Source: Pseudovibrio axinellae
Lineage (GTDB): Bacteria; Pseudomonadota; Alphaproteobacteria; Rhizobiales; Stappiaceae
DNA length: 38,964 nt
Assembly (NCBI RefSeq): GCF_900110875.1
Contig: NZ_FOFM01000020.1
Location: 1-38,964 of the forward strand
Reading direction: 5' to 3'
Shown here: in pieces, positions 2,356-34,990 of the stretch
How the letters are laid out: the number at the start of each line of letters is the position of its first letter
How positions within the stretch are numbered: position 1 is the stretch's first letter
Made by a program: the position numbers and the translations under genes
Notes under the pieces: generated by a model
The model's database searches: none
What the model was told of the DNA's origin: nothing
What the model saw: the letters and a program-made list of their open reading frames with translations, nothing else

Positions 2356-3075
2356 TCACCTTTCATGGTGATGAGCTGCAAAAATAACCTCTGCCAGATG
2401 GCAAGCATGCAGGACAGGCGCCTTGAGAGGGTTGATGCCAACCATAGCCAAAGCCGCTGACAGATTTTCTTCAAGATGTAGGTCGATCAGCTGAATTGGT
2501 ACCGGGTCGCTGTCCACCTTGGCATCAATGTTGCGCCATGTTTCAAAAACTGGTGCTGGATGACCAACGTTGAAACTAGAAGGGTCCAGATGCAAGCCCA
2601 GACCGAGCGATTTCATGACAGCTTCTTTGCGCGCCCAGAATCGGAAAAGGTCATCCGGTTGCCTCTCAAGAGATGAAAATACCAATCTCTCCTGAGGAGA
2701 AAAGGCTGCTCCAAGTGTGTCTGGAGACATATCCTTCAGCACCTCAATATCCACTCCGACCTGATGGGTGGCGCTGACAGCCAGAGCAACATATGGGCCG
2801 GAGTGGCTCAGGTTAATCTGAGGGCCTTCCAGCAGGTATGGTTTGCCATAAGCACCATGAAAAAATTGCAGTTTTCCCGGAGGGTGCAGCATAAGCAGCG
2901 AAAGAACAGCGCGCATAAATATGTGTGCCAATGCATAAAGCCGCGCATGTTCGGGAAACACAAACCTGTCTGCTTTGTCCTGCTCTTCCGCACTCAACCA
3001 GTGGCGGTGGTCTTCCGGATTGATCCCACTTGTGTCGAGCCGGCTCCAAAAAACCAGCGGCGCTGAAGAGTGCAT
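2356..3075 (-). CDS. Sfp-type 4'-phosphopantetheinyl transferase
   Basis: This 239-residue enzyme should transfer phosphopantetheine from coenzyme A to the conserved Ser of the carrier domains in the three megasynthases. The family signature is present: QINLSHSG, then QVGVDIEVL (magnesium-binding acidic pair), then FWARKEAVMKSLGLGL. Length is typical for the Sfp/HetI class that acts on secondary-metabolite carriers, and longer than AcpS. The gene is divergent from the PKS operon and shares its promoter region. The start is the ATG at 3073-3075; no strong Shine-Dalgarno sequence precedes it, so expression may be modest or the start slightly different. The IS6 remnant ends about 70 bp beyond its stop codon. 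Confidence 0.93.
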   Translation of the reverse strand: MHSSAPLVFWSRLDTSGINPEDHRHWLSAEEQDKADRFVFPEHARLYALAHIFMRAVLSLLMLHPPGKLQFFHGAYGKPYLLEGPQINLSHSGPYVALAVSATHQVGVDIEVLKDMSPDTLGAAFSPQERLVFSSLERQPDDLFRFWARKEAVMKSLGLGLHLDPSSFNVGHPAPVFETWRNIDAKVDSDPVPIQLIDLHLEENLSAALAMVGINPLKAPVLHACHLAEVIFAAHHHER

Positions 3076-3111
3076 GTCAGAGTATGGTCCGTACCTACTA
3101 TATCAGAGATG

Positions 3112-3137
3112 AATTAGAGTCTTACCAAACTCTATTT
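3112..3137. promoter_or_regulatory. Imperfect palindrome, candidate operator
   Basis: TAGAGT (3115-3120) and ACTCTA (3129-3134) form a perfect inverted repeat around an 8-base centre. One-mismatch extension gives 9-base arms (AATTAGAGT and ACTCTATTT). It lies in the divergent region between the phosphopantetheinyl transferase and the first PKS gene, where an operator for one of the downstream LysR-type regulators would be expected. The assignment to a particular regulator is inference. Confidence 0.4.
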
Positions 3138-3150
3138 GAAAGTAAATGCA

Positions 3151-3177
3151 TCCTTCATGAAACTCACCCGTGAAGGA
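3151..3177. promoter_or_regulatory. Second inverted repeat in the divergent promoter region
   Basis: TCCTTCA (3151-3157) pairs with TGAAGGA (3171-3177) across a 13-base loop. It could be a protein-binding site or a leader hairpin. It lacks a following T-run, so it does not look like an intrinsic terminator. Confidence 0.3.
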
Positions 3178-3282: not shown

Positions 3283-3290
3283 ATTTTTAA

Positions 3291-6200
3291 ATGGGTGTGT
3301 CTTCGCAAACCGCTACTCCTGGCAACTCAGCATATGAGTGGGTCCGCGCTGATGTGGTCAGGGCCATTTGCAAAGAGACGGGGTTGTCTCCGCAAGATAT
3401 GTCTGATGAAACGTCATTCCAGGATGTGGGTGTCGAATCTGTATTGAGCGTTGCAGTTGTGGAAACGCTGGAAAGCACTTACGGCCCACTGAGCAAGGCG
3501 CTTTTGTTTGAATTCTCCACTGTGGGAAAGCTGACTGCTCATCTGGTAACGGTGAGTGGGGCCATTGAAGAGCAGGCTCAGGAGAGCCAAAGCGCACTCG
3601 TGCATGCAGAGAAAGAGTTAACACAGACCACACCACCAACTTTCTCTTCTGAGGAGGGAGGCATTGTCCCGGACGTATTCCAGAGTATAAGTACCCCTAA
3701 ACCTGAGGTAGGCGATCACACTGCTAAGGTTGTCCCAACCATAATCCCAGCCCCTTCCAGAAAAAACACTGCAGAAGACGACGACGCGATAGCAATCGTC
3801 GGTATGGCTGGTCAGTTCCCGGATGCAGACAGCATTGAGAGCTTTTGGGAGCATCTTCTGGAAGGCGCAGACAACATATCAGTTATTCCTGAGCGGCTTT
3901 GGGACTGGCAGGAGTTTTGGGAGGAGCGGGCAGGCCATCCGGGCAAGTCCTACAGCAAATGGGGCGGTTTTTTACCGGATCATCGCCTCTTTGATCCCAT
4001 GTTCTTTCGCATGTCCAAGCTTGAGGCTGAAGCAATCGACCCGCAGGAAAGGGTTTTTCTGGAAACAGTTTATCTTGCGTTGGAAGATGCCCAGTCTACA
4101 CGCAAGAAAAGAGATGGAAAACGCTGCGGACTATATGTTGCAATCATGTGGGGGTCTTACCAGCATTATGGCTCTATGGATGCCAGCGCGGGCGCCTCTT
4201 ATGCCACAATTGCTAACCGCGCGTCCTTTGCGCTGGACCTGACCGGGCCAAGCATTCCGATAGACACAATGTGTTCAGGCTCACTGACCACACTTCACAT
4301 GGCCGCGCAGAGTATCCGCAATGGTGAGTGCGAGATGGCTGTTGCCGGTGGGGTTAACCTGACCACTCATCCAAACAAGTACTTCGTCCTCAGCAAGACG
4401 GGTTTCGCCGCAGCTGATGGACGTTGCAAACCCTTCAGCTCAGATGCTGATGGGTATGTTCCCTCTGAGGGCAGCGGAGCGCTCGTTCTCAAAAAACTGA
4501 GTGATGCACGCAAAGATGGCGACAAGGTCTATGCCATCTTACGCAGCTCGGCAGTCAACCATGGCGGGGCTGTCAATAACCTGACAATGCCGAATGTTGA
4601 CAGTCAGGAAGAGTTGATTGAGACTAGTTTTACCGGCACAGATATCACACCTGACCAAATCGGCTATGTGGAAGCACATGCGCCGGGCACCAGCCTGGGG
4701 GACCCCATTGAGGTTCGTGCGCTCTCCAACGTCTTTGGGCGACAGGGTATGACGGCTGGCGATGTTGCTATCGGGTCCGTCAAGTCGAACATCGGCCATC
4801 TTGAATCGGCAGCAGGGGTCGCAAGTGTTGTCAAAGTGATCCAGCAAATGCGGAACCGGCAGCTGGTCCCTTCAATCCATGCTGAAACACGCAACCCAAA
4901 TATCAACTTCGACGTCTCTCCCTTTGCGCTTCAGGAAAGCTTGAGCGCATGGACACCGGTTCTTAACAAAACCGGTGTTGAAGAGCCGCTTCGTGCCATG
5001 ATCAATTGCTTTGGCGCAGGGGGCACAAACGCGCATGCGCTTTTGGAGGCCGGGCAAACCAGACCGGACCTGGCGTTGGCAGGTGAGGATGCACCGCAGC
5101 TCTTCCTGTTTTCTGCTCGCACGAAAACTGCACGACACGCTTTGTTGGTGCGGATGCGCAAGGCACTTGCTGCACATGATGCACGCCATGATAGCCCAAG
5201 GGCGCAGGAGCTGGCACACGCCGTCTATCAGGCGGTGGCCGAGGCCTCCGGTGTTGATCGGAAGCACCTGGAGCAGGATGACAGCCTGAGTGACCTGCTG
5301 AATGATCCTGCAAAATGGCAGGCACTGCCTGCGGCATTGGCCCAAACCAGCGGAGTGTGGCCAACGACAGACGAGCTGGCTGGGATGAAAACGGTTCTTG
5401 AGCTGAGCGAACTGATACAGCGGATTGCCATACCTGACTTTGTACCAGCGGGTGAGCGTTGGGAGCGTGCCTATTTTCAGGGTCTCGCCAAAGCCACACA
5501 AACAGGCCGGGATCCTCAGCAGGAGCGTGTTGCAATTGTCGCTCGCGACCTTGAAGAGCTCAAAACCATACTGGATGAGTTGATAACGGGTAGTGAGAAG
5601 GCTTCGGGCTATTCCGCCAGCGGTACCGCGACGCCAAAAGATACTGTGCGCCTGCGTGGTGAGCTGACAGAGGGATATGTTCACGAGCTTACAGCAAACC
5701 GCCGTTTGGAGAAGCTGGCGAAGCTGTGGGTTAAAGGCCTGAGCGTGAACTGGGCCAGTGCGTTTCCGGTTTCACCACTGCGGGTGGACCTTCCGCTTTA
5801 CCCGTTTGACCATGAAATCTGCTGGGCTCCTCAGGAACGCCCCGACGCAAGCTGGCAGACGCCGCGCGGTGTTGTGACTGTGGCTCCAGGTGCGGTACTG
5901 GACCTGAAGCGCAGCCTTTCTGATGATCAGCTGTTCTTCTCGCTGGAAAAAAGCGATCAATACTCAGAGCAGATCCAGACACTTGCTGAGATGGCAAGAC
6001 TGGTTCTGGAAGGGGCAGCCTTACCAGCCGTCGCGCAGATCGAACAATGGGCGGATCTGACCGCATCCTCCATTCCAGATAGTATTTTGATTAAGCGCAG
6101 AGCTGATGGTGGGGTCGTGGCTCTGGCTCAGTGTGATGGCCACCCGGCAGCAGAGATGGTGGTGCGCTCAGGCTATGCTACCCACACCGTGAGTGCGGCC

Positions 6201-9200
6201 CCTGTTTCCAAAATGATCGAGCAGGCAGAGGCTTCTGGTGGAGCCTTGGGAAATCAGGCGCAGGTTGTTCAGGGCGGCGTAGTTTCCCGCTTGCGGCTCA
6301 CCAGAGAAGGCGACCATGCCGGGTTGATGCAGGCTGTCACGGATGTTGCGCGTTCGTTGGGCGAGGTCGGGCACGAACCATTGTTGCTTGGACAGCTTTG
6401 CCAGATTACGGAGTTGCCGAAAGAGGGCTGGATTTGTTTGACAAGTGCCTCTGAGGATCAAGCAGGGGACGCTGAACAAGAGGCCTTTATCTTCAATAAT
6501 GAGCACCAGCTGGTGGCGCATTTCTCGCGGGTGGTCTACGGGTTACGGCCTCAGGTTGCCCCGCTACGCCCGCAAGTCCGGCAATTTGAGGAGCAGTGGA
6601 ACCTGCTGCCTGCACTGCCAAAACGGGCTCTTGAGCGTGATCGCAAATTGTTGGTCATTGCACCGACGGATGCCGACATACAGGCATCAGATGAGCTGTT
6701 TGCTGTTTCTCAAAAGCAGGTGATTACCTATCAGCGTAAGGGCATCAGCCAGCTGCAGGAGAACGGGCACTGGGTGCTGAACGTTGACGATATGGCGGCT
6801 TGCAAAGCGTGCTTCCAGTTGTTTGACGACCCGGATGCGGTTGTTTTTGTCAGCAGCAGCGATCCGGCGATGGCAACGGTAGAACTCAGCCTTATACACG
6901 CTCTTTCCCGCGAGATGATCCACCGCAATCTGTTCCGTCGCTCTGGCTTCAACTTCCATGTGGTGACACGAGGTGCGCTGATGGGAGATGGTGCAGAAGC
7001 TGGTGAGGTCAGGCCCTCAGCTATTCCCGGTTATCTGCGTACGTTGCGCCGCGAGACCAACGGCCAGATCTTTTTGGCGGACTTTGACCCGTCCAGCGCA
7101 CTTGCGACACTACCCAAAGATCAGGCCATGGCATTCTGGCGGCAAGCCGGCGAACCGAAAGCCACAGAGATCGCCGTGCGCGGAAACAGCGTTTACGGGC
7201 CAACCGTTGAGGAAGTCCCGCATGGTTCCATACCTTCAGCCGCTTTTTCTCATAACGGGGTTTATGTGCTGTTTGGTGGCAATGGAACAATTGGCCAGCG
7301 TTTCAGTCTGGAACTGGCAACTCAATATGGTGCGCGGCTGGTGTGGGTTTCCAGATCTGACCTGACGGAGGAAGCCAGCGCAGTGGCGGACCGTATCCGC
7401 GCGGCGGGTGGGGAACTCACTCACGTTAAAGCTGATGTCTCCGATGCTGCTGCGGTACAGGAAACACTCAGTCAGGTGGAAACTCAGTATGGCCGGATCG
7501 ATGGTGTTTTGAACCTGACCATGGTGCGCGATATCCGCCGGATTGCAGACCTGCCAGAAGAGATGATGCCAGAGCTGATCAAAAGCAAGATGGAGGGAAC
7601 CGACAACATAATTGCGGCCTGTGCGTCTGTTCAGCCCGGTTTTGTCCTGCTGTTTTCATCAATTGATGTGTTCGTTGGCAGCGTCGGTTGGTCCGCTTAC
7701 ACAGCAGCCTGTTCTTATCAGGTGTCTGCAAGCTGGAAGGCGCGACAAAGCAGCCTGCCGGTTCATGTGATTAACTGGGGTTTTTGGGAAGGCATTGATG
7801 ACGATATCGCCGCAAATCTGGCGGAGAAGGGCATCGGCCTCTTAACAGTTACGGATGGCCTGTCGGCGACAGCGTGTGCGCTGCAATCTGGCAATACCGC
7901 GCCTGTGTTTACCGTGGCTTCAGATGAAATGCTCTCGCGTGTCGGGTTCAAGCTGCTGCCGAAAGAAACAGCAAACACGGCGCAATCGCAATCTGTACCA
8001 GCTCCGCAGCAAGAGGCTGCCGTCAGTATTGCCCCTGTTTTTGAGCCCAAGGCCGCGCCAGCACCGGTTCCAGCGCAAAATCAGGTTCAGCCGGTGGTGG
8101 TTACCGCGCCCGTTCGTGCAGAGCCGCAAGGAGTGGAGGAGCAAGCCGGGCAAATGCTGGGGAGCCTGCGCAACCTGTTTGCCGATATTTTGAAGCTGGA
8201 CCCGGACGCACTGGACCCAGAGGCGGATCTGCTCAACTACGGCGTAGATTCTCTGATTGTCGTCAACATTCAAACTGCACTGGAAGAACAGGTGGGAGCA
8301 ATTCCAACTGGTGTTCTTTTGGAAAACTCTACGCTGGTTCAGATCGCGCAAGCTATAGCGCGGGATCATCCTGAGGCCGCGCGTGCTTTGTTGCCTGACC
8401 AGCCGCAAGTCAGCACCGCCGCAGTTGCCGTTGAGCCTGCTGTTGCCCCACAGCCGGTTGCGCAACTTCAAGCACCGTCTCCGATACGGGTTCTGCATCA
8501 GGTTCCTGCCAATGATATTGAGGCGTTTCTTCACTCCTACGCAGAGAGTTACGACGCCAAAACGCTGGAAAATGAAAGCTCTGAGGCAGCTCGTTTTGTG
8601 CCCACAGACGATGGCAGTCTTCAACATGCCATGGTGAAGACTGAGAGCGGAGAGGTTGAGGTCTTTTCCGTTGGTAACGGGGGTACGCCGATTGTCATGT
8701 TCTCAGCCGTTGCATTGACAGTTCCAACATGGACACCGCTTCTCACATCCAGCTTGACGCAGTCACATCAGCTCATTGTGGTGCATCAACCCGGGTATGG
8801 CTTAAGTGCCCCGGTTTCTGAGTGCAATAACCAGCGTGTGGCGGCTATTACCCGCAAGACCCTGCACCAGATTGGAGTAACAGGGCCGGTTCATGTCTTT
8901 GGGTCTTGTCTGGGCTCAGTCCCCGCGATGCATTTTGCGGCTGACTTCCCACAGGATACAGCCTCGCTAACCTTGTTCGGGGCTTTCCATGATGCCTCTG
9001 ATCTGAATGCGGGGGATCCCTCCACCATGAGTTCGCAGGAGTTTGCCGAACTTGCGCAAACGGCTGTTGCAACGTTGGAGCGCGACTTCGACATGGTCGC
9101 CAAAGCTGAAGCCTCTGCTAGTGAAAACAGCAGCGAAGAACGTGACCGGGCTGTGGCGTACGTCAACGCGTGCCGAGCACTTCTTATGGGGTCGCAGAAG

Positions 9201-9512
9201 GTGAACTTTCTGGTAGCGCTGCGTTACCTCAACGAGATGATGTCGCTTTCCATGATGCCAGTACTGGAGCGGATTTCCTGCCGCTGCCTGTGCGTTGTGG
9301 GCAACCGTGACCAGATCATTGAGCCACGTCACTCAACGGAGATCGCGTCAGCGCTGAAGGAGGCTGAACTGGTGGAAATCGACCGGTCCGGGCACTTCCC
9401 TTACCTCACTCATCCTCATGATGTTCTTCCGGTGCTGCGGACGTTTCTTGACCGCACTCAGGCGTCCACCAGTACCGAATCAGCACAAACACTCGTGAGC
9501 GCCCATGATTGA
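3291..9512 (+). CDS. Trans-AT PKS: ACP-KS-(DH-like)-KR-ACP-thioesterase
   Basis: Domains of this 2073-residue protein, in order: ACP (about 18-85, Ser50 in GVES); KS (about 163-590) with Cys328, His463 and His503; an ACP-like stretch without a modifiable Ser (about 645-715); a post-KS linker ending near 845 (LPLYPFDHE); a region resembling a dehydratase but lacking HxxxGxxxxP (about 860-1130); KR (about 1130-1570) with GGNGTIG, Ser1457 and Tyr1470; ACP (about 1610-1680, Ser1654 in GVDSL); and a C-terminal alpha/beta-hydrolase (about 1790-2060). There is no AT, so malonyl units must come from the discrete transferase at 14403. The N-terminal ACP probably completes the carrier-less module at the end of the 26882 protein, making this the last assembly-line protein although it is encoded first. 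Oddities: the KS has EAHAPGT instead of EAHGTGT, the KR has Cys1474 where the usual Asn sits, and the hydrolase nucleophile is Cys1873 (GSCLG) with Asp2007 and His2035. Confidence 0.92.
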   Translation: MGVSSQTATPGNSAYEWVRADVVRAICKETGLSPQDMSDETSFQDVGVESVLSVAVVETLESTYGPLSKALLFEFSTVGKLTAHLVTVSGAIEEQAQESQSALVHAEKELTQTTPPTFSSEEGGIVPDVFQSISTPKPEVGDHTAKVVPTIIPAPSRKNTAEDDDAIAIVGMAGQFPDADSIESFWEHLLEGADNISVIPERLWDWQEFWEERAGHPGKSYSKWGGFLPDHRLFDPMFFRMSKLEAEAIDPQERVFLETVYLALEDAQSTRKKRDGKRCGLYVAIMWGSYQHYGSMDASAGASYATIANRASFALDLTGPSIPIDTMCSGSLTTLHMAAQSIRNGECEMAVAGGVNLTTHPNKYFVLSKTGFAAADGRCKPFSSDADGYVPSEGSGALVLKKLSDARKDGDKVYAILRSSAVNHGGAVNNLTMPNVDSQEELIETSFTGTDITPDQIGYVEAHAPGTSLGDPIEVRALSNVFGRQGMTAGDVAIGSVKSNIGHLESAAGVASVVKVIQQMRNRQLVPSIHAETRNPNINFDVSPFALQESLSAWTPVLNKTGVEEPLRAMINCFGAGGTNAHALLEAGQTRPDLALAGEDAPQLFLFSARTKTARHALLVRMRKALAAHDARHDSPRAQELAHAVYQAVAEASGVDRKHLEQDDSLSDLLNDPAKWQALPAALAQTSGVWPTTDELAGMKTVLELSELIQRIAIPDFVPAGERWERAYFQGLAKATQTGRDPQQERVAIVARDLEELKTILDELITGSEKASGYSASGTATPKDTVRLRGELTEGYVHELTANRRLEKLAKLWVKGLSVNWASAFPVSPLRVDLPLYPFDHEICWAPQERPDASWQTPRGVVTVAPGAVLDLKRSLSDDQLFFSLEKSDQYSEQIQTLAEMARLVLEGAALPAVAQIEQWADLTASSIPDSILIKRRADGGVVALAQCDGHPAAEMVVRSGYATHTVSAAPVSKMIEQAEASGGALGNQAQVVQGGVVSRLRLTREGDHAGLMQAVTDVARSLGEVGHEPLLLGQLCQITELPKEGWICLTSASEDQAGDAEQEAFIFNNEHQLVAHFSRVVYGLRPQVAPLRPQVRQFEEQWNLLPALPKRALERDRKLLVIAPTDADIQASDELFAVSQKQVITYQRKGISQLQENGHWVLNVDDMAACKACFQLFDDPDAVVFVSSSDPAMATVELSLIHALSREMIHRNLFRRSGFNFHVVTRGALMGDGAEAGEVRPSAIPGYLRTLRRETNGQIFLADFDPSSALATLPKDQAMAFWRQAGEPKATEIAVRGNSVYGPTVEEVPHGSIPSAAFSHNGVYVLFGGNGTIGQRFSLELATQYGARLVWVSRSDLTEEASAVADRIRAAGGELTHVKADVSDAAAVQETLSQVETQYGRIDGVLNLTMVRDIRRIADLPEEMMPELIKSKMEGTDNIIAACASVQPGFVLLFSSIDVFVGSVGWSAYTAACSYQVSASWKARQSSLPVHVINWGFWEGIDDDIAANLAEKGIGLLTVTDGLSATACALQSGNTAPVFTVASDEMLSRVGFKLLPKETANTAQSQSVPAPQQEAAVSIAPVFEPKAAPAPVPAQNQVQPVVVTAPVRAEPQGVEEQAGQMLGSLRNLFADILKLDPDALDPEADLLNYGVDSLIVVNIQTALEEQVGAIPTGVLLENSTLVQIAQAIARDHPEAARALLPDQPQVSTAAVAVEPAVAPQPVAQLQAPSPIRVLHQVPANDIEAFLHSYAESYDAKTLENESSEAARFVPTDDGSLQHAMVKTESGEVEVFSVGNGGTPIVMFSAVALTVPTWTPLLTSSLTQSHQLIVVHQPGYGLSAPVSECNNQRVAAITRKTLHQIGVTGPVHVFGSCLGSVPAMHFAADFPQDTASLTLFGAFHDASDLNAGDPSTMSSQEFAELAQTAVATLERDFDMVAKAEASASENSSEERDRAVAYVNACRALLMGSQKVNFLVALRYLNEMMSLSMMPVLERISCRCLCVVGNRDQIIEPRHSTEIASALKEAELVEIDRSGHFPYLTHPHDVLPVLRTFLDRTQASTSTESAQTLVSAHD

Positions 9513-12323: not shown

Positions 12324-12367
12324 ACCGCGTTTTCCATATGGACACATGAAACCGGAAAGTGATTTGC

Positions 12368-13600: not shown

Positions 13601-14406
13601 TAGAAACCGGTACATATCTTTCTGCGCCGCGTGTCGCTGAACAGACCAATCCATGGGTTGGTCTTCACCGACCTGCGACGGCGTCTCAGGCGCAGATTGT
13701 TATTGCCCCCTATGCAGGAGGCAATGCCTCCGGGTTCTTCTCATGGATGAAAGAGGTTGGAGCTGAAGACTGGCTGGACGTCATCATTTTGCAACCCCCC
13801 GGCCGTGGCGCTCGCCATCGCGAGGAGCCGGTCAGCTCTTTGGAAGCGTATGCAGAGCAAGTTGCAGATTTGCTGGTGCAAAGCCAATCCGGTCTGCCTG
13901 TTTTCCTGATGGGCTATTCCATGGGCGCTATTGTCTGCCATCTTGTTTCGCAGCGGCTTTTTGCTTTGGGCGCTGCCCTGCCAAAAGGATTGATTGTGGC
14001 AGCGCGAAAGGCACCGCAATACCAACGAACATCAGGAGGTGGGCCGCTTACCCGTGATCAGATTCTGGCGCGGCTCAAAAGGTTGCAGGGCACACCAGAG
14101 GCTCTTTTGAACAATCGGGAGATGCTGGACCCATATCTTGATAGCATCTCCGCAGAGTTTCACATCGTCGACAATTTCGTTCCACGGCCTTCGCGCTCGT
14201 TGCCCATACCGGTGGCAGCTATTTCCGGGCTGGATGACCCTGAAACCCCGCTGATGGAGGTGTTCGGGTGGCGTCAGCACAGCTCAGCCGAGTTTGAAGC
14301 TCATTTCATCGAAGGCGGTCACTTTTTCATGAACTCAAACCGCGCAGAATTCATTGACCTCGCATTGCGCTTTATTCGCAAACACAAACAAGGAGCTACA
14401 CCATGA
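13597..14406 (+). CDS. Type II (editing) thioesterase
   Basis: A 269-residue alpha/beta-hydrolase of the GrsT/RifR type. It has the GYSMGA nucleophile elbow (Ser108), an aspartate-containing SGLDDPETP segment and EGGHFF with His242, plus an N-terminal VIAPYAGGNASGF block typical of type II thioesterases. Such enzymes remove stalled or wrong acyl groups from carrier domains. It overlaps the preceding and following genes by 4 nt each, so it is translationally coupled to the precursor enzyme and to the acyltransferase. It uses a normal Ser, unlike the Cys in the integrated thioesterase of the first PKS. Confidence 0.93.
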   Translation: MIETGTYLSAPRVAEQTNPWVGLHRPATASQAQIVIAPYAGGNASGFFSWMKEVGAEDWLDVIILQPPGRGARHREEPVSSLEAYAEQVADLLVQSQSGLPVFLMGYSMGAIVCHLVSQRLFALGAALPKGLIVAARKAPQYQRTSGGGPLTRDQILARLKRLQGTPEALLNNREMLDPYLDSISAEFHIVDNFVPRPSRSLPIPVAAISGLDDPETPLMEVFGWRQHSSAEFEAHFIEGGHFFMNSNRAEFIDLALRFIRKHKQGATP

Positions 14407-26881: not shown

Positions 26882-29800
26882 ATGATGCTCGATACACCGA
26901 TACTCTCCCCAGATGGCCTGCGACAGGCCGTTCTTGGTAACGTGGCAGAGCTTCTTAACTGCCCTGTGGAGTCGCTAGATCTTGATCTGGGTCTGGGACA
27001 TCAGGGTTTCAACTCGTTGCACTATGCCTTGCTTTCCACCTCACTTGGAGATCTTGTTGGGCGGGATATCCGCACCTCTGACCTTCTGGCGGTGAGTTCT
27101 TTAAATGAATTACTTGCCTTCGCGCAGGAAGCAGCTCCTTCAAGGCCCGCAATTCCTGTTGAGCCAGAAGCTCTGGTTGAGACTGGGCCTGTCTCAAGCC
27201 AGCAGGACACTCAGGAAGACGATATCGCTGTCATCGGGCTTTATTGCCGGATGCCACAGGCGGACGGGCCTGATGCGTTTTGGCAAAATATTGTTAATGG
27301 TCGTGATTGCATTACACAGATCCCTGGGGACCGTTGGGACTGGCGCACCTTTTACGGAAATGATCCGGAGCGCAACGAAAGTCAGATCCGGTGGGGTGGG
27401 TTCCTTTCTGACATCGATTGTTTTGACCCCACGCGGTTCAACATTTCCCCGCGTGAAGCAAATGCCATGGACCCGCGCCAGCGCTTACTTCTGGAGGGCA
27501 GCTGGGGCCTTATGGAAGATGCAGGTTATGCCCCGCAAACAGGAACCTCAGAGAGGGTGGGTGTTTTCCTTGGCGTAACGGGTGATGAGTACGGCTCAAT
27601 GCTGGCAGCATCCGGCGCAGCTCAGGACCAGCTGACGTTAATAGGGACGGGACGGTCTTTCATCGCCAACCGCGTCAACTATGCCTTCAACTGGTCAGGC
27701 CCCAGTGAGGTGATTGATACAACGTGTTCCAGCTCGCTCGTTGCTATCCACCATGCCGTGAATGCGCTCAAGAATGGTGATTGTAATATGGCAGTTGCAG
27801 GGGGCATATCTGTCCTGATTGACCCCTTGCCGCACATTGCCCTTTCCAAGGTTGGTGTGCTGGCTGAAGATGGCCGCTGCAAAACATTTGATGATCGGGC
27901 GAATGGCTATGTCCGTAGTGAAGGGCTGGGGCTGGTCCTGCTTAAGCCGCTGGCTCAGGCTCTTGAGGATGGTGACAATGTGCAGGCGGTCATAAAGGCC
28001 TGCCGCATCAACCATGGCGGGCGCTCTTCTGCCATGACGGCGCCAAACGTTGCGGCCCAAAAGGCGCTGCTGAGTGAAACATTTGTAGAGGTGGACGGTG
28101 GAATAGGCGGGCTTGGCTATCACGAGTCCCACGGAACAGGCACGCGCCTTGGGGATCCCATTGAGATCACGGCATACGGGCAGGCCGTAGCTGGACAAAT
28201 TGCAGATGAGGGGTTGTCGCTACTAGATCAGCACATCTCCGTTGGATCGGTCAAGACCAGCATCGGCCATTGTGAAGCGGCGGCTGGGGTGGCGGGTTTC
28301 ATCAAGGCGATGCTGGCGCTCAAGCACTCCGTCAAACCGCCACTAGTGCATTTTAAAGACCAAAATACCGAGATTTCAACTGCGGGTACTCCACTCACTT
28401 TCGAGAGTTCAGCACGGGAATGGCAAGCCTCAATCGGCCCGCAAGGGTTGCCGCGTGCCCGGTGCGCCAGCCTTAGCGCCTTTGGGTTTGGTGGGGTAAA
28501 CGCCTGCGCTGTGATTGAGGAGGCTCCTCAGTCAAAACTTGGTAAGCCGATCAGGCTGGCTGGCCCTCAACTTTTCTTGCTCAGTGGACGAACGCCGGAA
28601 CTGTTGCGCAGCTCAGTACAAGACCTGCTCGACTGGCTGCCCGGTGCAGACGGGCGTGCCGCACGTCTGATCGACATAGCCTTCACGCTTCAACAAGGAC
28701 GGGTGCATGACAAACACCGTCTAGCAGTCGTGGCTGAAACAGCTGAAGATCTGACCAGACAGCTTTCGGCAGCGCTCATGGCAGGTTTGGGGGACCTGAA
28801 ACATGATAAACACCAGAATGAGGCTTTGCGCCGGGCTCTTGACGTGAATGATTTGCACGCCGCAGCGAAAGCATGGGAGCAGGGCGGCGCGGTGAACTGG
28901 CCTGAATGGGCAAGGCAGCTTTGCCCAGATGGCATTCGGATTTCACTGCCCAAAAGCCAATTCTTGCGCAAACGGTATTGGTTGCCGCAGCTTGAACAGA
29001 CCAAACGGGACGGGCTTACCGGCTGGGCAGAAGCTGATGACCTGAAAGACAACGGTTTAAGACTACGCTTAACCTCGCGCGATGGATTTTACGCGCAACA
29101 TGTGATCGCAGGTTCTCTGCTGCTTCCAGGTGCCGGGTTTCTATCGGCCATTGAGTTGGCGTGCCACCGCCACAAAACAACGTATGCGCCTGTCCATCTG
29201 GAGGATATCACCTTTCGCCAGCCCTTCAGCTTGAAAGAGGCTCCCGCAGCGGACCTTCTTGTCCTTCTTGAAGACGGCGAAGGGGCTACAAACGTAAGTG
29301 TGACGGCAAATGATGAGACGCATTCTCTTTGCACCGCCCGACTGAAAGAGGACGCTATGGCATCCCGCAAAAGTGGACTTGCGGAAGCGCGACGAGCCTA
29401 TGCGAATGTTACGACCGCAGCCCAACGTGAGAAGATCTTCACAGATCTTGGGATCTCGTATGGTCCGCTCTTTCAAGTGATCACAGATATGTGGTGGTCG
29501 GGGGATGAAGCTCTGGCAAGGGTTAGCATACCGGACCTGCCCTCCGCTGAACCCGGTTGCGGAGTTTCCATTCCGCTGTTGGATGGGCTCTTCCAGACCA
29601 TTTTGCTGCATCAGTCCTTTTCTGCCGGTACTGAAGAAACGCGGGTTCCCTTTAATATAAGCACACTTTGCGTTTACTCGCAGCCCGGCACAAATGGTTA
29701 CGTTCGTGTGCGTCCGGTTCGTGATGCGAGCGGCCAGAGACAGCGCTATGACGCACTGCTTTATGATAAGGAGGGCGCGCTTTCCATTGAAATGCTTGGC

Positions 29801-31189
29801 GTGCTTGGTCATCAGATACCCGCGCAAAACCCTGCTTCCGACAAGGGGGAAGTTGTCCCCCTTGTTCCGGCTTGGGCATCTATACAAGCCATAAATTCGA
29901 GCACACCGGCGAGAATGGCACTGCTGGATTTGTCTGGCTCTTTTGAACCAGATGCGCTGCTGTCTGGGGGTGAGTTTGTCCAGATCACTGCTGAGCTGAG
30001 TGAGGCTGCGGCAACGGACTGGCTGAAAAGCGGTGAGGAAAAACTAACTGTCTTGCTAGGGGCTGGTGGCAGGTATGAGGGCGACTTCCTCAAACAAGCG
30101 GCTTTATTCCTCAAAGCATGTTTGTCTCAGCCTGTGCCCAACAGCCGTTCTGTACTGTTTGTTGAGCTTGAACGCAGTCTGAAGGATCAATCTGTCATTG
30201 AAGGTCTTGCAGCTCTTGGCAAGGCTGTGGAGCTGGAGAACCCGGCCTTTTCTGTCAAAACCTTGCAAGTAGATCCGTTGGCGGCCCCTCAGCTGAATGC
30301 GGTTCTGGCTCCTGTGCATGAGTTGAAACACTCCAACAGCTTTCGATTAATGCCGCGAGGTTTGCAACAAAGAGTGTTGCGCTCAGCAGATCTGACCTCA
30401 AAGACTAAAGGGATGGTTGAACCGGAAGGAGGCCTTTATCTGGTAACGGGTGGTTTTGGAGCAATTGGGCGCCATTTCGTGTCTAATCTGGCCAAGGCGG
30501 GGGCAACGGTGCTGGCCCTTGGCCGCAGTCCGCAAGCCGAAGAAAACCTGACTCGGGAAGAGGCAACAGCCGAGCGCATTCATTACGCACAGGTGGATTG
30601 CTCTCATTATGAATCCCTACAGGCTGCAATTTCAAACGCGCGGATGCAGTTCGGTCCTGTGCGCGGGGTGCTGCATTGTGCCGGGATAACTCCGGGCGGT
30701 TTGCTGGTGCGCCGTACCTCTGCAGAAATTGCGATGCAGATTGCCGTCAAACTCGATGCTGTGCGTTACCTTGACGAGATAACAGCAGATGACGCACCAA
30801 ATCTGTTCGCTGCCTTCTCATCCCTCATTGCGCACTCGGGTATTATTGGATGCAGTGATTATGCTCTGGCAAACAGGGCAATGGAGGCCTATGTCGCACA
30901 ACGCGCCTCCAGCCGTTCTGGACGCAGTTTTTCAATAGCCTGGTCTGCGTGGCCTGAGGGCGGTATGAGCCTGCGTCCTGAGCAAGAAGGACGGATTCGG
31001 CGTGAGGGAATTTTGCCGATACCACCACAAGCTGCCATCGCTGCCGCAGAAGCAGTGTTTGCGACGCCTGATCTTACAACAGCTGTGCTCCCTTACGGAC
31101 ATTCTGATCTCATCATCAAACGTTTTACTGAGAATTTCATGACGCAGGACAGGGGCACTTCCTCTGCCGCGAGAGGAGGTATGCAATGA
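26882..31189 (+). CDS. Trans-AT PKS: T-KS-DH-KR
   Basis: Domains of this 1435-residue protein: carrier (about 8-80, Ser45 in GFNS); KS (about 115-555) with Cys282, His417 (ESHGTGT) and His463; post-KS linker; DH (about 715-985) with His740 in HVIAGSLLLP and Asp901 in DGLFQ, apparently competent; KR (about 1020-1400) with TGGFGAIG, Ser1314, Tyr1327 and Asn1331, apparently competent. There is no AT and no carrier after the KR. The N-terminal carrier probably receives cysteine from A2 of the preceding protein, 2 nt upstream, and the N-terminal ACP of the 3291 protein probably receives this module's product. DH plus KR predicts an enoyl C2 unit. The stop overlaps the radical SAM gene by 4 nt. Confidence 0.92.
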   Translation: MMLDTPILSPDGLRQAVLGNVAELLNCPVESLDLDLGLGHQGFNSLHYALLSTSLGDLVGRDIRTSDLLAVSSLNELLAFAQEAAPSRPAIPVEPEALVETGPVSSQQDTQEDDIAVIGLYCRMPQADGPDAFWQNIVNGRDCITQIPGDRWDWRTFYGNDPERNESQIRWGGFLSDIDCFDPTRFNISPREANAMDPRQRLLLEGSWGLMEDAGYAPQTGTSERVGVFLGVTGDEYGSMLAASGAAQDQLTLIGTGRSFIANRVNYAFNWSGPSEVIDTTCSSSLVAIHHAVNALKNGDCNMAVAGGISVLIDPLPHIALSKVGVLAEDGRCKTFDDRANGYVRSEGLGLVLLKPLAQALEDGDNVQAVIKACRINHGGRSSAMTAPNVAAQKALLSETFVEVDGGIGGLGYHESHGTGTRLGDPIEITAYGQAVAGQIADEGLSLLDQHISVGSVKTSIGHCEAAAGVAGFIKAMLALKHSVKPPLVHFKDQNTEISTAGTPLTFESSAREWQASIGPQGLPRARCASLSAFGFGGVNACAVIEEAPQSKLGKPIRLAGPQLFLLSGRTPELLRSSVQDLLDWLPGADGRAARLIDIAFTLQQGRVHDKHRLAVVAETAEDLTRQLSAALMAGLGDLKHDKHQNEALRRALDVNDLHAAAKAWEQGGAVNWPEWARQLCPDGIRISLPKSQFLRKRYWLPQLEQTKRDGLTGWAEADDLKDNGLRLRLTSRDGFYAQHVIAGSLLLPGAGFLSAIELACHRHKTTYAPVHLEDITFRQPFSLKEAPAADLLVLLEDGEGATNVSVTANDETHSLCTARLKEDAMASRKSGLAEARRAYANVTTAAQREKIFTDLGISYGPLFQVITDMWWSGDEALARVSIPDLPSAEPGCGVSIPLLDGLFQTILLHQSFSAGTEETRVPFNISTLCVYSQPGTNGYVRVRPVRDASGQRQRYDALLYDKEGALSIEMLGVLGHQIPAQNPASDKGEVVPLVPAWASIQAINSSTPARMALLDLSGSFEPDALLSGGEFVQITAELSEAAATDWLKSGEEKLTVLLGAGGRYEGDFLKQAALFLKACLSQPVPNSRSVLFVELERSLKDQSVIEGLAALGKAVELENPAFSVKTLQVDPLAAPQLNAVLAPVHELKHSNSFRLMPRGLQQRVLRSADLTSKTKGMVEPEGGLYLVTGGFGAIGRHFVSNLAKAGATVLALGRSPQAEENLTREEATAERIHYAQVDCSHYESLQAAISNARMQFGPVRGVLHCAGITPGGLLVRRTSAEIAMQIAVKLDAVRYLDEITADDAPNLFAAFSSLIAHSGIIGCSDYALANRAMEAYVAQRASSRSGRSFSIAWSAWPEGGMSLRPEQEGRIRREGILPIPPQAAIAAAEAVFATPDLTTAVLPYGHSDLIIKRFTENFMTQDRGTSSAARGGMQ

Positions 31190-33210
31190 TGGATACTGCC
31201 ATGGTCCGGCGCCAACAGGCTCTTTTGGTCCACATCAATGCCATGAAAGGGATCACGCCGCTGGTCGGAGGCTATTTGAAAGCCTATGCCTTTAAAGACG
31301 AGGACATACAAAGCTCGTGGCAGATTGAGTTGCTGAGTGTAACGATAGAGCGTTCAGTTGATGAAATTGTTGCAGAAGTGCTGGAGCGTTGCGGTCCTGC
31401 ACCCTCTGCAATCGGCTTCAGCACCTATGTCTGGAATATTAAACTGGTGCAAGGGGCGCTGGAGAAACTTCGAAGCATATTGCCGAAGGAGACAGTTTAT
31501 ATTCTGGGTGGTGTTGAGGCTATGAACCGGGCCGAGGAGCTGATTACTCCGGATGATGAAAATATCTTGATCTGCAATGGTGAGGGTGAAATCACGTTCT
31601 GCGAGTTGCTTAACGAAATCAACAAAGACAGCCCGGATTTCACGCGTGTTGGCGGGATTAGTTTTTATCAAAATGGGGAGCTGGTTCATACACCTGACCA
31701 CAAAAGGATCAAGTCTCTCGATGAAATCCCGTCACCGTTTCTGGCGGGGTATTTTGAGCCTCAGGATATGGCGATTGCGTTGTTGGAGACCAATCGTGGT
31801 TGTCCCTATCAATGTTCCTATTGTTTTTGGGGCGGTGCTGTTGGGCAAAAGATCAACAGGATCAGCAAAACGCGCATTGAGCAGGAAATTGAGTATCTGG
31901 GGCAAAACAACTGCCGCTCAGTTCTGCTGTGCGATGCCAATTTCGGCATATTCCCCAATGATGTGGAACATGCGAAGCAATTCGTAGCGGCCAAAAAGAA
32001 ATATGGCTTTCCGATGCGGGTCAGATACTCGTCTGCCAAGAACAACCTGGAACGCTCGCTGGAGATCGCTTCAATTCTGGCTGAGGGCGATGTGCTTACC
32101 TGCCAGCCAATCTCCTTGCAAACCCTCTCTCCTGTCGCTTTGAAGAAAGCCAATCGTGATAACATAGATCTTCAGACCTACTTTGGTTTGCAAAAGCGCA
32201 CCAATGAGCTGGGGATCTCGTCGTTTATTGAGATCATATGGCCATTGCCGGGGGAGACCCTTGCCAGTTTTAAAGATGGTTTGGCGCAACTGTGCCGCCG
32301 GGGGGCTCAGGCGTTCGCCGTATATCCGTTACTCTGGCTAAACAATGTCGGGTTTCAGGGGCAGGAGCAGGCTCTTGGTGTTCAAACATGGAAAGATGCT
32401 GATGAGTCTGGCTCTGGCCGCAATGTTATCGCGACCAAAGAAGTGCCGTTTGATGATTATCTGGACGGGCTGATGTATGCAGCAGCTTTACAGGTACTGC
32501 ATGACGCGAGAACATTTGACCACACGCTGAGACTGCTTGATGCCCTTGGGTCCGCGTCGATCAGAAGCGTTTGTGACCTTTTTGTCACCTTCATAGATGC
32601 CAAGCAGGGAGTTGGCGGGTTTGCTGCCCTTTGGGAAGAAGGCCGTGACCGGTTTCGGGAAACTCGCTCCAACATCACTTGGCCGGGATCGCTGGTTTTT
32701 CATGCACTCCATGAAGACCGGGCTGGATTTGACAGTTTACTGCGCGAGTTCGTTTCTGAAAATCGGGCATTGTTCTCCTTTGCACCCGACGCCCCCGATG
32801 GCATTGCTGTGTCTCGCCTGATCGATACAACCCTCGATTTTGACCTTCTGGCCCGGCCTTATGTTTATAACAACACGCCCATGCGCAGCGACATGACGTT
32901 GAAACATATGATCGTGAAGAATGTCGGCAAGCGGGCTTATGACGCACAGGGGCCGATTGATATCGAAGCCATTCTTCAGTCCATCCAGAACCAGAATGCA
33001 ACTGGACAAACCGAACCGCTTGGAGAAAGCAACACGGCTTATCGGTTCGATCATTCGATCAACCAAGGGTTCCTGATGGCATCAAAGTCACGGGAGGACC
33101 ACTTTGACGAATGTCGTCTCTTTGCCACTGAGATCGGAAACTTCAGCCAGACCTGGCAAACTGCAGAAACATCCAACTCTCTTCCAACCCACGAAACCGA
33201 AAGAGCATGA
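31186..33210 (+). CDS. Cobalamin-type radical SAM enzyme (class B-like)
   Basis: A 674-residue protein. The N-terminal about 150 residues resemble a cobalamin-binding Rossmann domain (IGFSTYVWNIKLV, YILGGVEA) without the DxHxxG histidine, as in many class B radical SAM methyltransferases. The radical SAM core follows with ETNRGCPYQCSYCFWGG: Cys206, Cys210 and Cys213 bind the 4Fe-4S cluster. The C-terminal about 250 residues are not assigned. Enzymes of this architecture methylate unactivated carbons or rearrange rings, so methylation of the assembled scaffold is the likeliest role; none of the megasynthases contains a methyltransferase domain. It overlaps the PKS gene before it and lies 3 nt from the next gene. 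Confidence 0.87.
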   Translation: MMDTAMVRRQQALLVHINAMKGITPLVGGYLKAYAFKDEDIQSSWQIELLSVTIERSVDEIVAEVLERCGPAPSAIGFSTYVWNIKLVQGALEKLRSILPKETVYILGGVEAMNRAEELITPDDENILICNGEGEITFCELLNEINKDSPDFTRVGGISFYQNGELVHTPDHKRIKSLDEIPSPFLAGYFEPQDMAIALLETNRGCPYQCSYCFWGGAVGQKINRISKTRIEQEIEYLGQNNCRSVLLCDANFGIFPNDVEHAKQFVAAKKKYGFPMRVRYSSAKNNLERSLEIASILAEGDVLTCQPISLQTLSPVALKKANRDNIDLQTYFGLQKRTNELGISSFIEIIWPLPGETLASFKDGLAQLCRRGAQAFAVYPLLWLNNVGFQGQEQALGVQTWKDADESGSGRNVIATKEVPFDDYLDGLMYAAALQVLHDARTFDHTLRLLDALGSASIRSVCDLFVTFIDAKQGVGGFAALWEEGRDRFRETRSNITWPGSLVFHALHEDRAGFDSLLREFVSENRALFSFAPDAPDGIAVSRLIDTTLDFDLLARPYVYNNTPMRSDMTLKHMIVKNVGKRAYDAQGPIDIEAILQSIQNQNATGQTEPLGESNTAYRFDHSINQGFLMASKSREDHFDECRLFATEIGNFSQTWQTAETSNSLPTHETERA

Positions 33211-33213
33211 CCG

Positions 33214-33993
33214 ATGACACTTGTTCACCAGAATGAAATAGACACCTCATCGCTTCTGCTCTGGCAACAGTCGTCTTTTGCGGAAGTCCGCAGCCGGCTG
33301 TCTGACGGAACTGAATTTCCATGTCTTTTTGCGCAGAACGCATTCCGGCGGGAAATCGTCAAGATCTCTTTTGTGGAGACCCTAGATGATGTTGGATTGG
33401 AAAAAGCCCGCAGTGATTTGCTCGAATATGTCAAACGCTGTGAACATTGGGACGGCAAGGTGAACTCTGCTGAGCCATTACTGATGATTTTCAACCCGGA
33501 GAACGTCTCAAGTGACAGTGTTGAAGATTATCACAAGCTAGGCTGGCAGGTTCTCCAGTATTTCCATGACAACGATGACATGCCCTGGCCCGAAGGCACA
33601 GCACAGGCCCCCAATAGTCCGTATTGGTCAATGGCGTTTCACGGGCTCCAGTTGTTTGTGAACATGAGCAGCCCCGCCCACCAAGTGCGCAAAAGCAGAA
33701 ATCTGGGAGCGGCACTCACGCTTGTTATCAATCCGCGCGAGCGGTTCGACATTGTTGCCGGTGAGACAGAAGAGGGCCGCAGAACCCGCGCGAAAATCCG
33801 CCGCCGCGTGGAGGTGTATGATGGCTATTCGCATTGCCCCCAGTTGGGCAGCTATGCAGCAGGCGAGATTGAATGGTGGCAATACGGCATCATTGAAGAG
33901 AACAGGGACCGCACAGACCGTTGCCCACTGCACCAGCGTGCCGATGCAAAAGACGAACAGGAACCACACCTTGCTGAAGAGGAGCTTGCATGA
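33214..33993 (+). CDS. YqcI/YcgG-family heme N-hydroxylase homologue
   Basis: A 259-residue protein with the YqcI/YcgG family layout: FPCLFAQNAFRR near residue 35, YWSMAFHGLQLFVNM in the middle and LVINPRERFD. Characterised relatives DcsA (D-cycloserine pathway) and GntA (guanitoxin pathway) are heme proteins that N-hydroxylate arginine-type guanidines. Here the substrate could be a guanidine, an amine or the arylamine of the aminohydroxybenzoate unit; the sequence does not decide. The C-terminal about 30 residues are highly charged and probably disordered. It is coupled to the following hydrolase by an ATGA overlap, which suggests the two act in sequence, as DcsA and its hydrolase do. Confidence 0.8.
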   Translation: MTLVHQNEIDTSSLLLWQQSSFAEVRSRLSDGTEFPCLFAQNAFRREIVKISFVETLDDVGLEKARSDLLEYVKRCEHWDGKVNSAEPLLMIFNPENVSSDSVEDYHKLGWQVLQYFHDNDDMPWPEGTAQAPNSPYWSMAFHGLQLFVNMSSPAHQVRKSRNLGAALTLVINPRERFDIVAGETEEGRRTRAKIRRRVEVYDGYSHCPQLGSYAAGEIEWWQYGIIEENRDRTDRCPLHQRADAKDEQEPHLAEEELA

Positions 33994-34565
33994 CCTGCCT
34001 TATTCTTATCGACTGGCAAAAAGGCTTCAGGCAACTTGATTACTGGGGCAAACGTAATGGACAGGATGCTGATAAGAACGCAGCTCAACTCCTCAAGGCA
34101 TGGCGGGATAATGCTGGACAGGTAGTTCATATCCGGCATGACTCTGTTGAAGCTGGGTCACCCTTGCGGCCGGAATTACCTGGAAATGAGTTTGAAAACT
34201 TTGCGCAGCCTCTGAGGGAGGAAAAGGTTTACTCCAAGTCCGTGAACTCCGGCTTTATTGGCACAACCTTGAACGAAGATTTGCAGCGCGAAGGCATCCG
34301 ACGCTTGGTTTTGACAGGAGCAACGACGGACCATTGCGTGAACACCACGGCTCGAATGGCTGGAAACCTTGGCTATAAGGTGATTATAGCCAGCGATGCG
34401 TGTTTTACATTTGAGCGAAAAGCTCCGACTGGCGAGCAGCTTGATCCGCAGCTGGTTCACAATGTTCATCTGGCTAGTCTGGATCAAGAATTTGCTCAGG
34501 TTTTAAAAACCCAGGACATTCTCCAGACTGAATTCCCACATGTCTATAAGGAAACAGCTTTATGA
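33990..34565 (+). CDS. Isochorismatase-fold cysteine hydrolase
   Basis: A 191-residue member of the isochorismatase-like family. The family's catalytic triad is visible: Asp8 (LILIDWQKGF), Lys83 (KVYSKSVNSGF) and Cys116 (GATTDHCVNTTARMA). With a Cys nucleophile, relatives hydrolyse amides, N-carbamoyl groups or nicotinamide, whereas true isochorismatases usually lack it. AGGAG just upstream supports the ATG. It overlaps both neighbours by 4 nt. Following an N-hydroxylase homologue, cleavage of an N-hydroxylated amide, urea or guanidine-derived intermediate is plausible but unproven. Confidence 0.9.
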   Translation: MTCLILIDWQKGFRQLDYWGKRNGQDADKNAAQLLKAWRDNAGQVVHIRHDSVEAGSPLRPELPGNEFENFAQPLREEKVYSKSVNSGFIGTTLNEDLQREGIRRLVLTGATTDHCVNTTARMAGNLGYKVIIASDACFTFERKAPTGEQLDPQLVHNVHLASLDQEFAQVLKTQDILQTEFPHVYKETAL

Positions 34566-34990
34566 CAGCCTCTGATAATGATCACAGAATTTCCGAAAAA
34601 TCCAGCACCGGTATGAGCCGCACACTCCGCTATCTGCGAGTCTTTCTGGGCGTGTTTACACTGTTTTTCGGGGTTAACCGTATATTTCATTTTCTGCCGG
34701 AACCACCTTGGCCCGTTGATGCACAATCCTTTCTGGCCGCTCTTTATGCCAGCGGTTACATGTCCAGCCTCATCACAATGAGTGACATCTTTGTGGGCGC
34801 CTTGCTGATCTTGAATCTTGCAGGCCGAGCCGCCCTGATTATGGCTTTGCCGATCTATCTGCACTCCATGTTGTTTCACGTCTTTCTGGCGCCAGAAACT
34901 ATGTTGTTCGCGCTTATTGGCTTACTGCTGAATATCGGCCTGATTGTGGGATACTTCCCAGCTTACCGCAGTCTTATGAAACCGCTTTAA
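34562..34990 (+). CDS. DoxX-like small membrane protein
   Basis: A 142-residue protein with about four hydrophobic segments (around 20-38, 63-80, 85-103 and 110-135). The arrangement LGVFTLFFGVNRIFHF at the N-terminus and a polar VDAQSFLAALYASGYM loop are typical of DoxX-like inner-membrane proteins. Function in this pathway is unknown; relatives are linked to redox or quinone metabolism. AAGGA precedes the ATG, which overlaps the hydrolase stop. It is the last gene of the operon, 5 bp before a strong hairpin. Confidence 0.78.
   Translation: MTASDNDHRISEKSSTGMSRTLRYLRVFLGVFTLFFGVNRIFHFLPEPPWPVDAQSFLAALYASGYMSSLITMSDIFVGALLILNLAGRAALIMALPIYLHSMLFHVFLAPETMLFALIGLLLNIGLIVGYFPAYRSLMKPL

Follow-up and report, generated by a model that had tools for sequence, protein, structure and literature searches.

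Rare and reactive, diazo metabolites are easily overlooked in extracts. One known route to them couples enzymatically made nitrite to ATP-dependent ligases (PMC13061610). The described clusters considered here in which such a diazotase accompanies the synthesis of 3-amino-4-hydroxybenzoate (3,4-AHBA) are actinobacterial, with type II or otherwise simple systems. In the ava and cma clusters (avenalumic and p-coumaric acid), AvaH/AvaI-type 3,4-AHBA synthesis and an ATP-dependent diazotase are combined with a type II KS-CLF, CreE/CreD-type nitrite genes and a denitrifying reductase, AvaA7 or CmaA7 (PMC10777205). In cremeomycin biosynthesis (cre), a CreM-type diazotase likewise acts on an amino-hydroxybenzoate, the product being one benzoate unit and the nitrite being supplied by CreE/CreD (PMC11705231). 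The present work concerns a gene cluster of the alphaproteobacterium Pseudovibrio axinellae, carried on contig NZ_FOFM01000020.1 (38,964 nucleotides, analysed at full length and called the window below; apparently the whole contig, from a genome of 5.13 Mb). Like the ava, cma and cre clusters it encodes a diazotase-like ligase and, like ava and cma, a GriH/GriI-like pair for 3,4-AHBA. Unlike ava and cma, it has a modular type I polyketide synthase (PKS)/nonribosomal peptide synthetase line without AT domains, no AvaA7-like reductase among the scanned proteins and no CreE; unlike in cre, the aryl unit would start an assembly line. Our reading, to which we give a probability of about 0.65, is that the locus is an intact-looking biosynthetic operon from a recurring, uncharacterised family, directing the synthesis of an aryl-thiazoline polyketide whose arylamine is diazotised.

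Results

A diazotase-like ligase next to a putative 3,4-AHBA pair

A DHQS II protein (GriH-like) and a DhnA-type aldolase (GriI-like) are encoded together in the window, and this pair recurs in both related clusters described below. The ligase encoded next to the GriI-like gene is matched best by the NCBIfam model of AvaA6, ‘3-aminoavenalumate diazotase’ (380 bits; next model 169). Nine of its relatives show the same pattern, with AvaA6 at 382-476 bits, and the organisms named among the relatives include Xenorhabdus, Regiella, Bacillus, Bradyrhizobium, Nitrospira and Streptomyces. In a tree of 116 rows, from which 26 near-copies had been dropped and which includes no named assayed diazotase, a branch with SH-aLRT support of 99 splits 107 diazotase-like rows from eight CoA-ligase and A-domain outgroups, with one Leisingera row in between; the rows had been picked by likeness to the window ligase, so that the split is in part a result of this choice, and long branches meet. 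The rows nearest to the window ligase are six proteins at 54-70% identity, followed by a group with Xenorhabdus and Regiella. Residue E345 is invariant in 20 rows and is a candidate equivalent of E352 of CreM, the Mg/ATP glutamate. AvaA6 and CmaA6 diazotise o-aminophenols of this kind with ATP and nitrite (PMC10777205). Since the window ligase resembles AvaA6 and adjoins the 3,4-AHBA pair, we infer that it diazotises the arylamine starter.

At least 80 diazotase loci exist; among the 80 listed from named genomes, GriH was matched in 20, in 19 of these together with GriI, a CreE-like match occurred in 22 and a CreD-like one in 20 (as many as for another lyase query). Two loci of the cyanobacterium Moorena (L008, L009) carry GriH, GriI and a diazotase; the DNA examined there has neither a CreE- nor a CreD-like match. 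On a Klebsiella michiganensis plasmid (L100, from the oriental fruit fly), a diazotase is accompanied by GriH, GriI and an epimerase-like reductase, and the plasmid is likely to hold a coumarate-type diazotisation-deamination cluster outside the actinomycetes. In relatives from the host genus and class, a benzoate-CoA-ligase-like domain is fused to a diazotase-like domain with 33-34% identity to the window ligase (L089 was scanned, and L089 and L091 were compared; L088 and L090 have open frames of the same size). In Sinorhizobium medicae, a diazotase-like ligase is naturally fused to an OsmC domain (L102:19959-22088). An OsmC/Ohr-like gene follows the ligase gene in the window, and the fusion hints at OsmC acting together with the diazotase.

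An AT-less assembly line with a putative aryl starter

Taken in the order first, second and terminal megasynthase, Pfam and motif scans give A-ACP-KS-ACP-Cy-Cy-A, PCP-KS-DH-KR and ACP-KS-x-KR-ACP-TE. None of the three has an AT domain by Pfam and a discrete AT is encoded in the same operon (Table 1), the arrangement of a trans-AT PKS; the Cys-His-His residues are intact in all three KS domains. In the first A domain of all three clusters, Met replaces the Asp that binds the amine in amino-acid A domains, a replacement that fits an aryl acid. The second A domain has a Cys-type pocket, which S. medicae shares at the positions inspected by eye; from the alignment we take its code to be DLFNFSLVWK, against DLYNLSLIWK of PchE/HMWP2. 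Both HxxxGxxxxP and Dxxx(Q/H) are found in the DH of the second PKS. In the last module, a motif scan found no HxxxGxxxxP in the window, S. medicae or Sediminibacterium. At residues ~640-710 of the terminal PKS, between KS and KR, lies a carrier-protein-like segment with no obvious phosphopantetheine serine, and by eye the last modules of the three clusters all have such a segment after the KS.

Two Cy motifs are present in the first megasynthase. One, ESLIADAKS, lies near residue 1390 and has Glu in place of the first Asp; the other, DCIALDAPS, lies at 1823. Residues are counted from the start of the open reading frame (ORF) as listed, at 19053. A preliminary description of this DNA had proposed tandem Cy domains: one is a Condensation stretch by Pfam in the window, and the second comes from motifs and from comparison with S. 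medicae, whose homologue has two Condensation stretches by Pfam with both Cy motifs intact. The backbone that it had predicted (aryl acid, unreduced C2 unit, Cys-derived heterocycle, enoyl C2 unit and a further C2 unit) fits the domain order, which recurs in two other bacteria, and the simplest skeleton before tailoring would be aryl-CO-CH2-thiazoline-CH=CH-CH(OH)-CH2-COOH. Pfam and NCBIfam also bear out the components that it had named, each in its place, namely three megasynthases without AT domain, the discrete AT, the GriH/GriI-like pair, HpaB, a thioesterase (TE), a MATE exporter, a B12-type radical SAM protein, a YqcI/YcgG protein and the cluster’s own divergent 4'-phosphopantetheinyl transferase (PPTase). 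Its inventory lacked the diazotase-like ligase and the SAP_new25, OsmC and isochorismatase-like proteins found here with the same profiles, and with the overlooked diazotase the chemistry to be expected is no longer ‘oxidised and methylated’ but ‘diazotised’.

The core recurs in two distant bacteria

A common core of GriH, GriI, diazotase, an A-ACP-KS-ACP-Cy-Cy-A(Cys)-PCP-KS-DH-KR-ACP-KS-KR-ACP-TE line, HpaB, a SAP/DUF6434 protein and PPTase was found on conjugative plasmids of S. medicae and in Sediminibacterium magnilacihabitans (Bacteroidota). The genes, their domain order and motifs, and the recurrence of the core in these two distant bacteria are direct observations, and because of this recurrence the core is, at the level of sequence, a conserved set.

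Six S. medicae records were reached through GriH, radical SAM, HpaB and SAP matches, and two of them (pWSM1115_3 and T10) were analysed in detail. Identities to the window are 31% for SAP/DUF6434, 47% for radical SAM, 40% for GriH, 33% for GriI, 46% for HpaB and 30% for PPTase. The line is divided into PKSa (A-ACP-KS-ACP-Cy-Cy) and PKSb (A-PCP-KS-DH-KR-ACP-KS-x-KR-ACP-TE), the diazotase and OsmC form a 709-aa fusion, and a SagB dehydrogenase is present. The plasmid cluster thus resembles the window in core, module order, B12 radical SAM, OsmC (fused), SAP/DUF6434, HpaB and PPTase; in the DNA examined it has no match to MATE, YcgG, the isochorismatase-like protein, the last ORF, AT or the second TE. 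In the plasmid collection, the SAP protein matched six records, all S. medicae, and the same six gave the best radical SAM and HpaB matches (~47%), the next listed rows, full-length or partial, being at 28-35% and one at 26%; the 20-kb core had no megablast match there, and a 14-kb query matched no plasmid either.

The Sediminibacterium core lies on contig PVEQ01000018 (L068, L095 and L096), with identities to the window of 43% for GriH, 33% for GriI, 44% for diazotase, 49% for HpaB, 42% for MATE, 26% for SAP/DUF6434 and 27% for PPTase. PKS1 reads A-ACP-KS-ACP-ACP, PKS2 has two condensation-type stretches followed by A-PCP-KS-DH-KR, and PKS3 reads KS-x-KR-ACP-TE (39% over the KS half). The same strand then continues, beyond a transposase and a group II intron, with genes for a heme-oxygenase-like/cupin protein of 386 aa, a discrete AT that overlaps it (37% to the window AT) and a metallo-hydrolase. 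This cluster therefore shares with the window the core, module order, HpaB, MATE, SAP/DUF6434, PPTase and, further along the contig, the discrete AT, but differs in its heme-oxygenase-like/cupin and GyrI-like genes and in being broken by the transposase and intron; in the DNA examined it has no match to radical SAM, OsmC, YcgG, the isochorismatase-like protein, the last ORF or the second TE.

A radical SAM scan of genome contigs found no relative. Matches were obtained in 4 of 87 genomes of the host family (up to 15 candidates scored per genome) and in 2 of 385 genomes of the class (up to 3 candidates per genome), the host’s own genome being included in both counts. The preliminary description had called the combination of genes unfamiliar and had suggested looking for the same set in related genomes. 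With the S. medicae plasmids and S. magnilacihabitans, the core set is not unique to the window; in the open-access literature, judged from titles and abstract openings, we found no characterised cluster with such a gene make-up. By word search, trans-AT, thiazole and Sinorhizobium are unmentioned in PMC13061610.

Possible sources of nitrite

CreE/CreD-type nitrite genes were not found in any of the three clusters. A CreE query had no match in the P. axinellae or Sediminibacterium genome, while its controls (the query’s own genome and one other) were matched, and a CreD query returned only lyases of 31% and 30% identity in P. axinellae. A strong ornithine/lysine-oxygenase match on another host contig (C53) was rejected as CreE, as it belongs to a different family. 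NapA, encoded by the host (1578 bits; cut-off 930), would be the simplest nitrite source; nitrate/nitrite reductases have been proposed to serve alanosine in this way (PMC11705231).

None of eight Gram-negative diazotase loci examined (L011, L015, L033, L068/L095/L096, L086, L100, S. medicae and the window) has a CreE- or CreD-like match. Four encode a heme-oxygenase-like protein (Pseudoalteromonas L015, Photorhabdus L033, Pseudoduganella L086 and Sediminibacterium L096), one, the window, encodes YcgG, and three have neither. The heme-oxygenase-like protein is combined with a cupin at L015:16892-18091 and L096:10911-12071, and lies at L086:17153-17899 in Pseudoduganella. In Photorhabdus akhurstii (L033:9278-11713), a Haem_oxygenas_2 domain is fused to the diazotase itself (residues 242-792 of 811), and near it lie GriH, GriI and, as a separate gene, a cupin (15977-16447). 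The other 75 diazotase loci (Actinomycetota or cyanobacterial) gave no heme-oxygenase-like match; flanks were short throughout. The Sediminibacterium protein had weak matches to solved structures, and SznF, which joins a heme-oxygenase-like domain with a cupin (PMC11705231), was not one of them. For chalkophomycin, the YcgG enzyme ChmN has been proposed to replace the heme-oxygenase-like domain (PMC11177257).

It is conceivable, if on balance doubtful, that Gram-negative diazotase clusters without CreE/CreD bring their own N-oxygenase for the nitrogen oxide. This might be a heme-oxygenase-like diiron protein or, here, the YcgG enzyme oxidising free L-arginine together with the isochorismatase-type hydrolase cleaving the N-hydroxyguanidine; the odds are raised by the heme-oxygenase-like proteins in four Gram-negative loci. 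If true, nitrogen oxide would here be supplied otherwise than by the aspartate-nitrosuccinate route, and a C-methylated polyketide of the aryl-thiazoline type would be armed with a diazo group. YcgG as a family-wide nitrite source is unsupported, as the window’s is the only YcgG match in the ORFs of the 80 listed loci and the related clusters (flanks of at most 10 kb). An isochorismatase-like match was seen in none of the 17 other YcgG loci of the class (14 genomes; ~2.5-3.6 kb examined each), and a YcgG search of three whole genomes, run without a positive control, was empty.

Tailoring enzymes

The radical SAM protein is a probable C-methyltransferase, because it is closest to CysS among solved structures (361 bits) and to KedN5, by far its best NCBIfam model (321 bits, under the subfamily cut-off of 700). 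Its CxxxCxxC motif reads CPYQCSYC; the B12-binding Pfam domain scores 21.1 against a cut-off of 32.1, and is above the cut-off in the S. medicae homologue. HpaB should hydroxylate the phenol ring, and no flavin reductase partner for it was found within the window.

The YqcI/YcgG protein (187.6 bits; Pfam family cut-off 27) belongs to the family of AglA, ChmN, DcsA and GntA. In a HMMER alignment to the K196R chain of AglA, its Cys37 falls on the heme-ligand Cys44, and most of the pocket is retained: Phe148, Arg162, Arg175, Phe178, Arg196 and Gln223 match Phe152, Arg166, Arg179, Phe182, Arg200 and Gln228, respectively. It differs from AglA in its diazotase cluster context and in having Asn173 for Gln177, Arg192 for Lys196 and Glu220 for Lys225. 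In AglA, the K196R and K225E changes, and more so the double variant, enabled Ndelta-hydroxylation of free arginine (PMC12866846), and ChmN hydroxylates free L-arginine (PMC11177257). Since Arg192 and Glu220 match these changes, we predict that the window enzyme, like ChmN, hydroxylates free L-arginine; the AglA comparison makes arginine a likelier substrate than the aryl chain. YqcI/YcgG domains were also seen inside open frames of 6,502 and 8,199 aa (L118, L119), apparently as part of giant synthetases.

Gene content and genomic context

The operon-like block at 3291-34990 comprises 16 genes on one strand, with the PPTase gene divergent from it (Table 1). Co-transcription of the block is plausible, because its genes either overlap their neighbours or are separated from them by 2-59 bases. 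The SAP_new25 protein belongs to a widespread family; its AlphaFold model is confident, and no structure matched it convincingly. Two LysR genes (Pfam) lie downstream of the operon. A search for 16S in the host genome returned nothing, as it also did in 5 of 14 control genomes. Transposase genes are found at both contig ends, at 3-326 (-), 762-1883 (+, ISKra4-type), 37541-38269 (-) and 38361-38963 (+), and since they flank both ends the cluster probably lies on a mobile or repeat-bounded segment.

Table 1. Genes of the cluster in their order along the window, with the evidence for each assignment.
Feature	Position	Strand	Evidence
4'-Phosphopantetheinyl transferase, divergent from operon	2356-3075	-	Pfam ACPS, E 1.9e-12
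Terminal PKS, ACP-KS-(degenerate DH region)-KR-ACP-TE	3291-9512	+	Pfam, motifs, KR/DH alignments
HpaB-type flavin-dependent aromatic hydroxylase	9505-11025	+	Pfam HpaB_N, 1.2e-76
MATE exporter	11022-12323	+	Pfam MatE; TIGR00797 above cut-off
GriH-like DHQS II (putative 3,4-AHBA synthase)	12359-13600	+	Pfam DHQS, 1.1e-73; BagC/FevH 197 bits, under cut-off
Type II (editing) thioesterase	13597-14406	+	Pfam Thioesterase, 6.2e-32
Discrete malonyl-type acyltransferase	14403-15281	+	Pfam Acyl_transf_1; FabD model 243 bits
SAP_new25 protein, no assigned function	15295-15945	+	Pfam, 6.8e-11
GriI-like DhnA/DeoC aldolase	15964-16833	+	Pfam DeoC, 3.2e-18; BagB/FevI 98.6 bits, under cut-off
ATP-dependent arylamine diazotase-like ligase, 567 aa	16830-18533	+	NCBIfam AvaA6 380 bits, next model 169; tree
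OsmC/Ohr-like protein	18559-19014	+	Pfam OsmC
First megasynthase, A(aryl)-ACP-KS-ACP-Cy-Cy-A(Cys)	19074-26879	+	Pfam, motifs, A-domain alignment
Second megasynthase, PCP-KS-DH-KR, with intact DH and KR motifs	26882-31189	+	Pfam, motifs
Cobalamin-type radical SAM, KedN5/CysS-like, putative C-methyltransferase	31186-33210	+	NCBIfam KedN5 321 bits; CysS 361 bits
YqcI/YcgG heme enzyme, probable arginine N-hydroxylase	33214-33993	+	Pfam, 3.3e-55; alignment to AglA
Isochorismatase-family cysteine hydrolase	33990-34565	+	Pfam, 2.8e-31
Small membrane-protein-like ORF, last operon gene, without family match	34562-34990	+	Pfam

Discussion

From these genes we predict the substrates, the order of tailoring, the timing of diazotisation, the fate of the diazo group, the nitrite source and the product as follows. 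The GriI- and GriH-like enzymes would make 3-amino-4-hydroxybenzoate, which the first A domain would load on the ACP. The KS would add one unreduced malonyl unit supplied by the discrete AT, Cy-Cy-A(Cys) would add cysteine and close the thiazoline, the second PKS would add an enoyl C2 unit and the last PKS a C2 unit, keto-reduced at most, before the TE frees the chain. Ring hydroxylation of the phenol would fall to HpaB, and C-methylation to the B12 radical SAM enzyme. The diazotase, assisted by OsmC, would activate nitrite with ATP and convert the aryl amine to a diazo group (o-quinone diazide-type), to be kept or consumed later; as the aspartate-nitrosuccinate route is missing, the nitrite would come from NapA or the YcgG enzyme. 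The MATE protein would export the product, probably an aryl-thiazoline polyketide formed by way of a diazo stage, with the diazo group perhaps retained.

Several observations weigh against this pathway. Both members of the 3,4-AHBA pair score under their NCBIfam cut-offs (197 of 750 bits for BagC/FevH and 98.6 of 500 for BagB/FevI), and the ligase misses the AvaA6 equivalog cut-off (380 against 975 bits), so that we do not assign it to AvaA6 itself. In the tree, besides the way in which its rows were picked and its long branches, the diazotases of the three clusters sit with many others in a 50-row group (support 83) and form no group of their own. The first Cy domain of the window is uncertain owing to the Glu in its motif, as is the last KR, in which the catalytic Asn is replaced by Cys in all three clusters. 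The crx cluster requires a CreM homologue, and still none of the products purified has a diazo group (PMC11429834).

This last case leads to the alternative that survives best, in which diazotisation is cryptic and the diazo intermediate is reduced off, displaced or coupled, to leave a final product without it. Avenalumic and p-coumaric acid are precedents in ava and cma (PMC10777205), and the crx products lack the group though CrxM is required for two of the three (PMC11429834). However, no match to the AvaA7-type epimerase-like reductase family was found among the scanned window proteins, whereas such a gene does accompany GriH, GriI and the diazotase on the K. michiganensis plasmid; we consider this outcome possible but unlikely. 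It is rather improbable that the ligase is no diazotase at all and activates 3-amino-4-hydroxybenzoate or another acid as a CoA or ACP thioester. It is an ANL-family enzyme under the AvaA6 cut-off, and several of its relatives are annotated at source as CoA ligases, but the first megasynthase already has a loading A domain, generic CoA-ligase models score less than half as high, and the ligase falls with the diazotase-like rows in the tree; in our judgement, fusions to OsmC (S. medicae) and to a heme-oxygenase-like domain (Photorhabdus) would also be odd for a CoA ligase. Improbable too is a metallophore built on phenol and thiazoline, like yersiniabactin or pyochelin, with ligands added by N-hydroxylation. 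The phenol, the Cy-made thiazoline, the cluster’s own PPTase and an N-oxygenase family common with graminine siderophores (PMC11177257) might recall one, but the scanned window proteins include no receptor, siderophore-uptake family or SznF-like protein, the unreduced C2 unit lies between aryl group and heterocycle, and the related clusters have no YcgG match.

An aryl-thiazoline polyketide formed by way of diazotisation is the product that we favour. What is new here, as judged from the gene content, is the coupling of a 3,4-AHBA starter and a diazotase to a trans-AT PKS/NRPS line, in Pseudomonadota and Bacteroidota. As 72 of 134 ava-like clusters are without nitrite genes (PMC10777205), the nitrite question raised by this locus bears on those clusters as well. 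The diazotase-OsmC fusion, the fusion of diazotase and heme-oxygenase-like domain and the conserved SAP/DUF6434 gene point to three candidate partners. The cluster lies on conjugative rhizobial plasmids, and three named strains, S. medicae WSM1115 and T10 and S. magnilacihabitans DSM 22423, are open to a search for what may be a new compound class.

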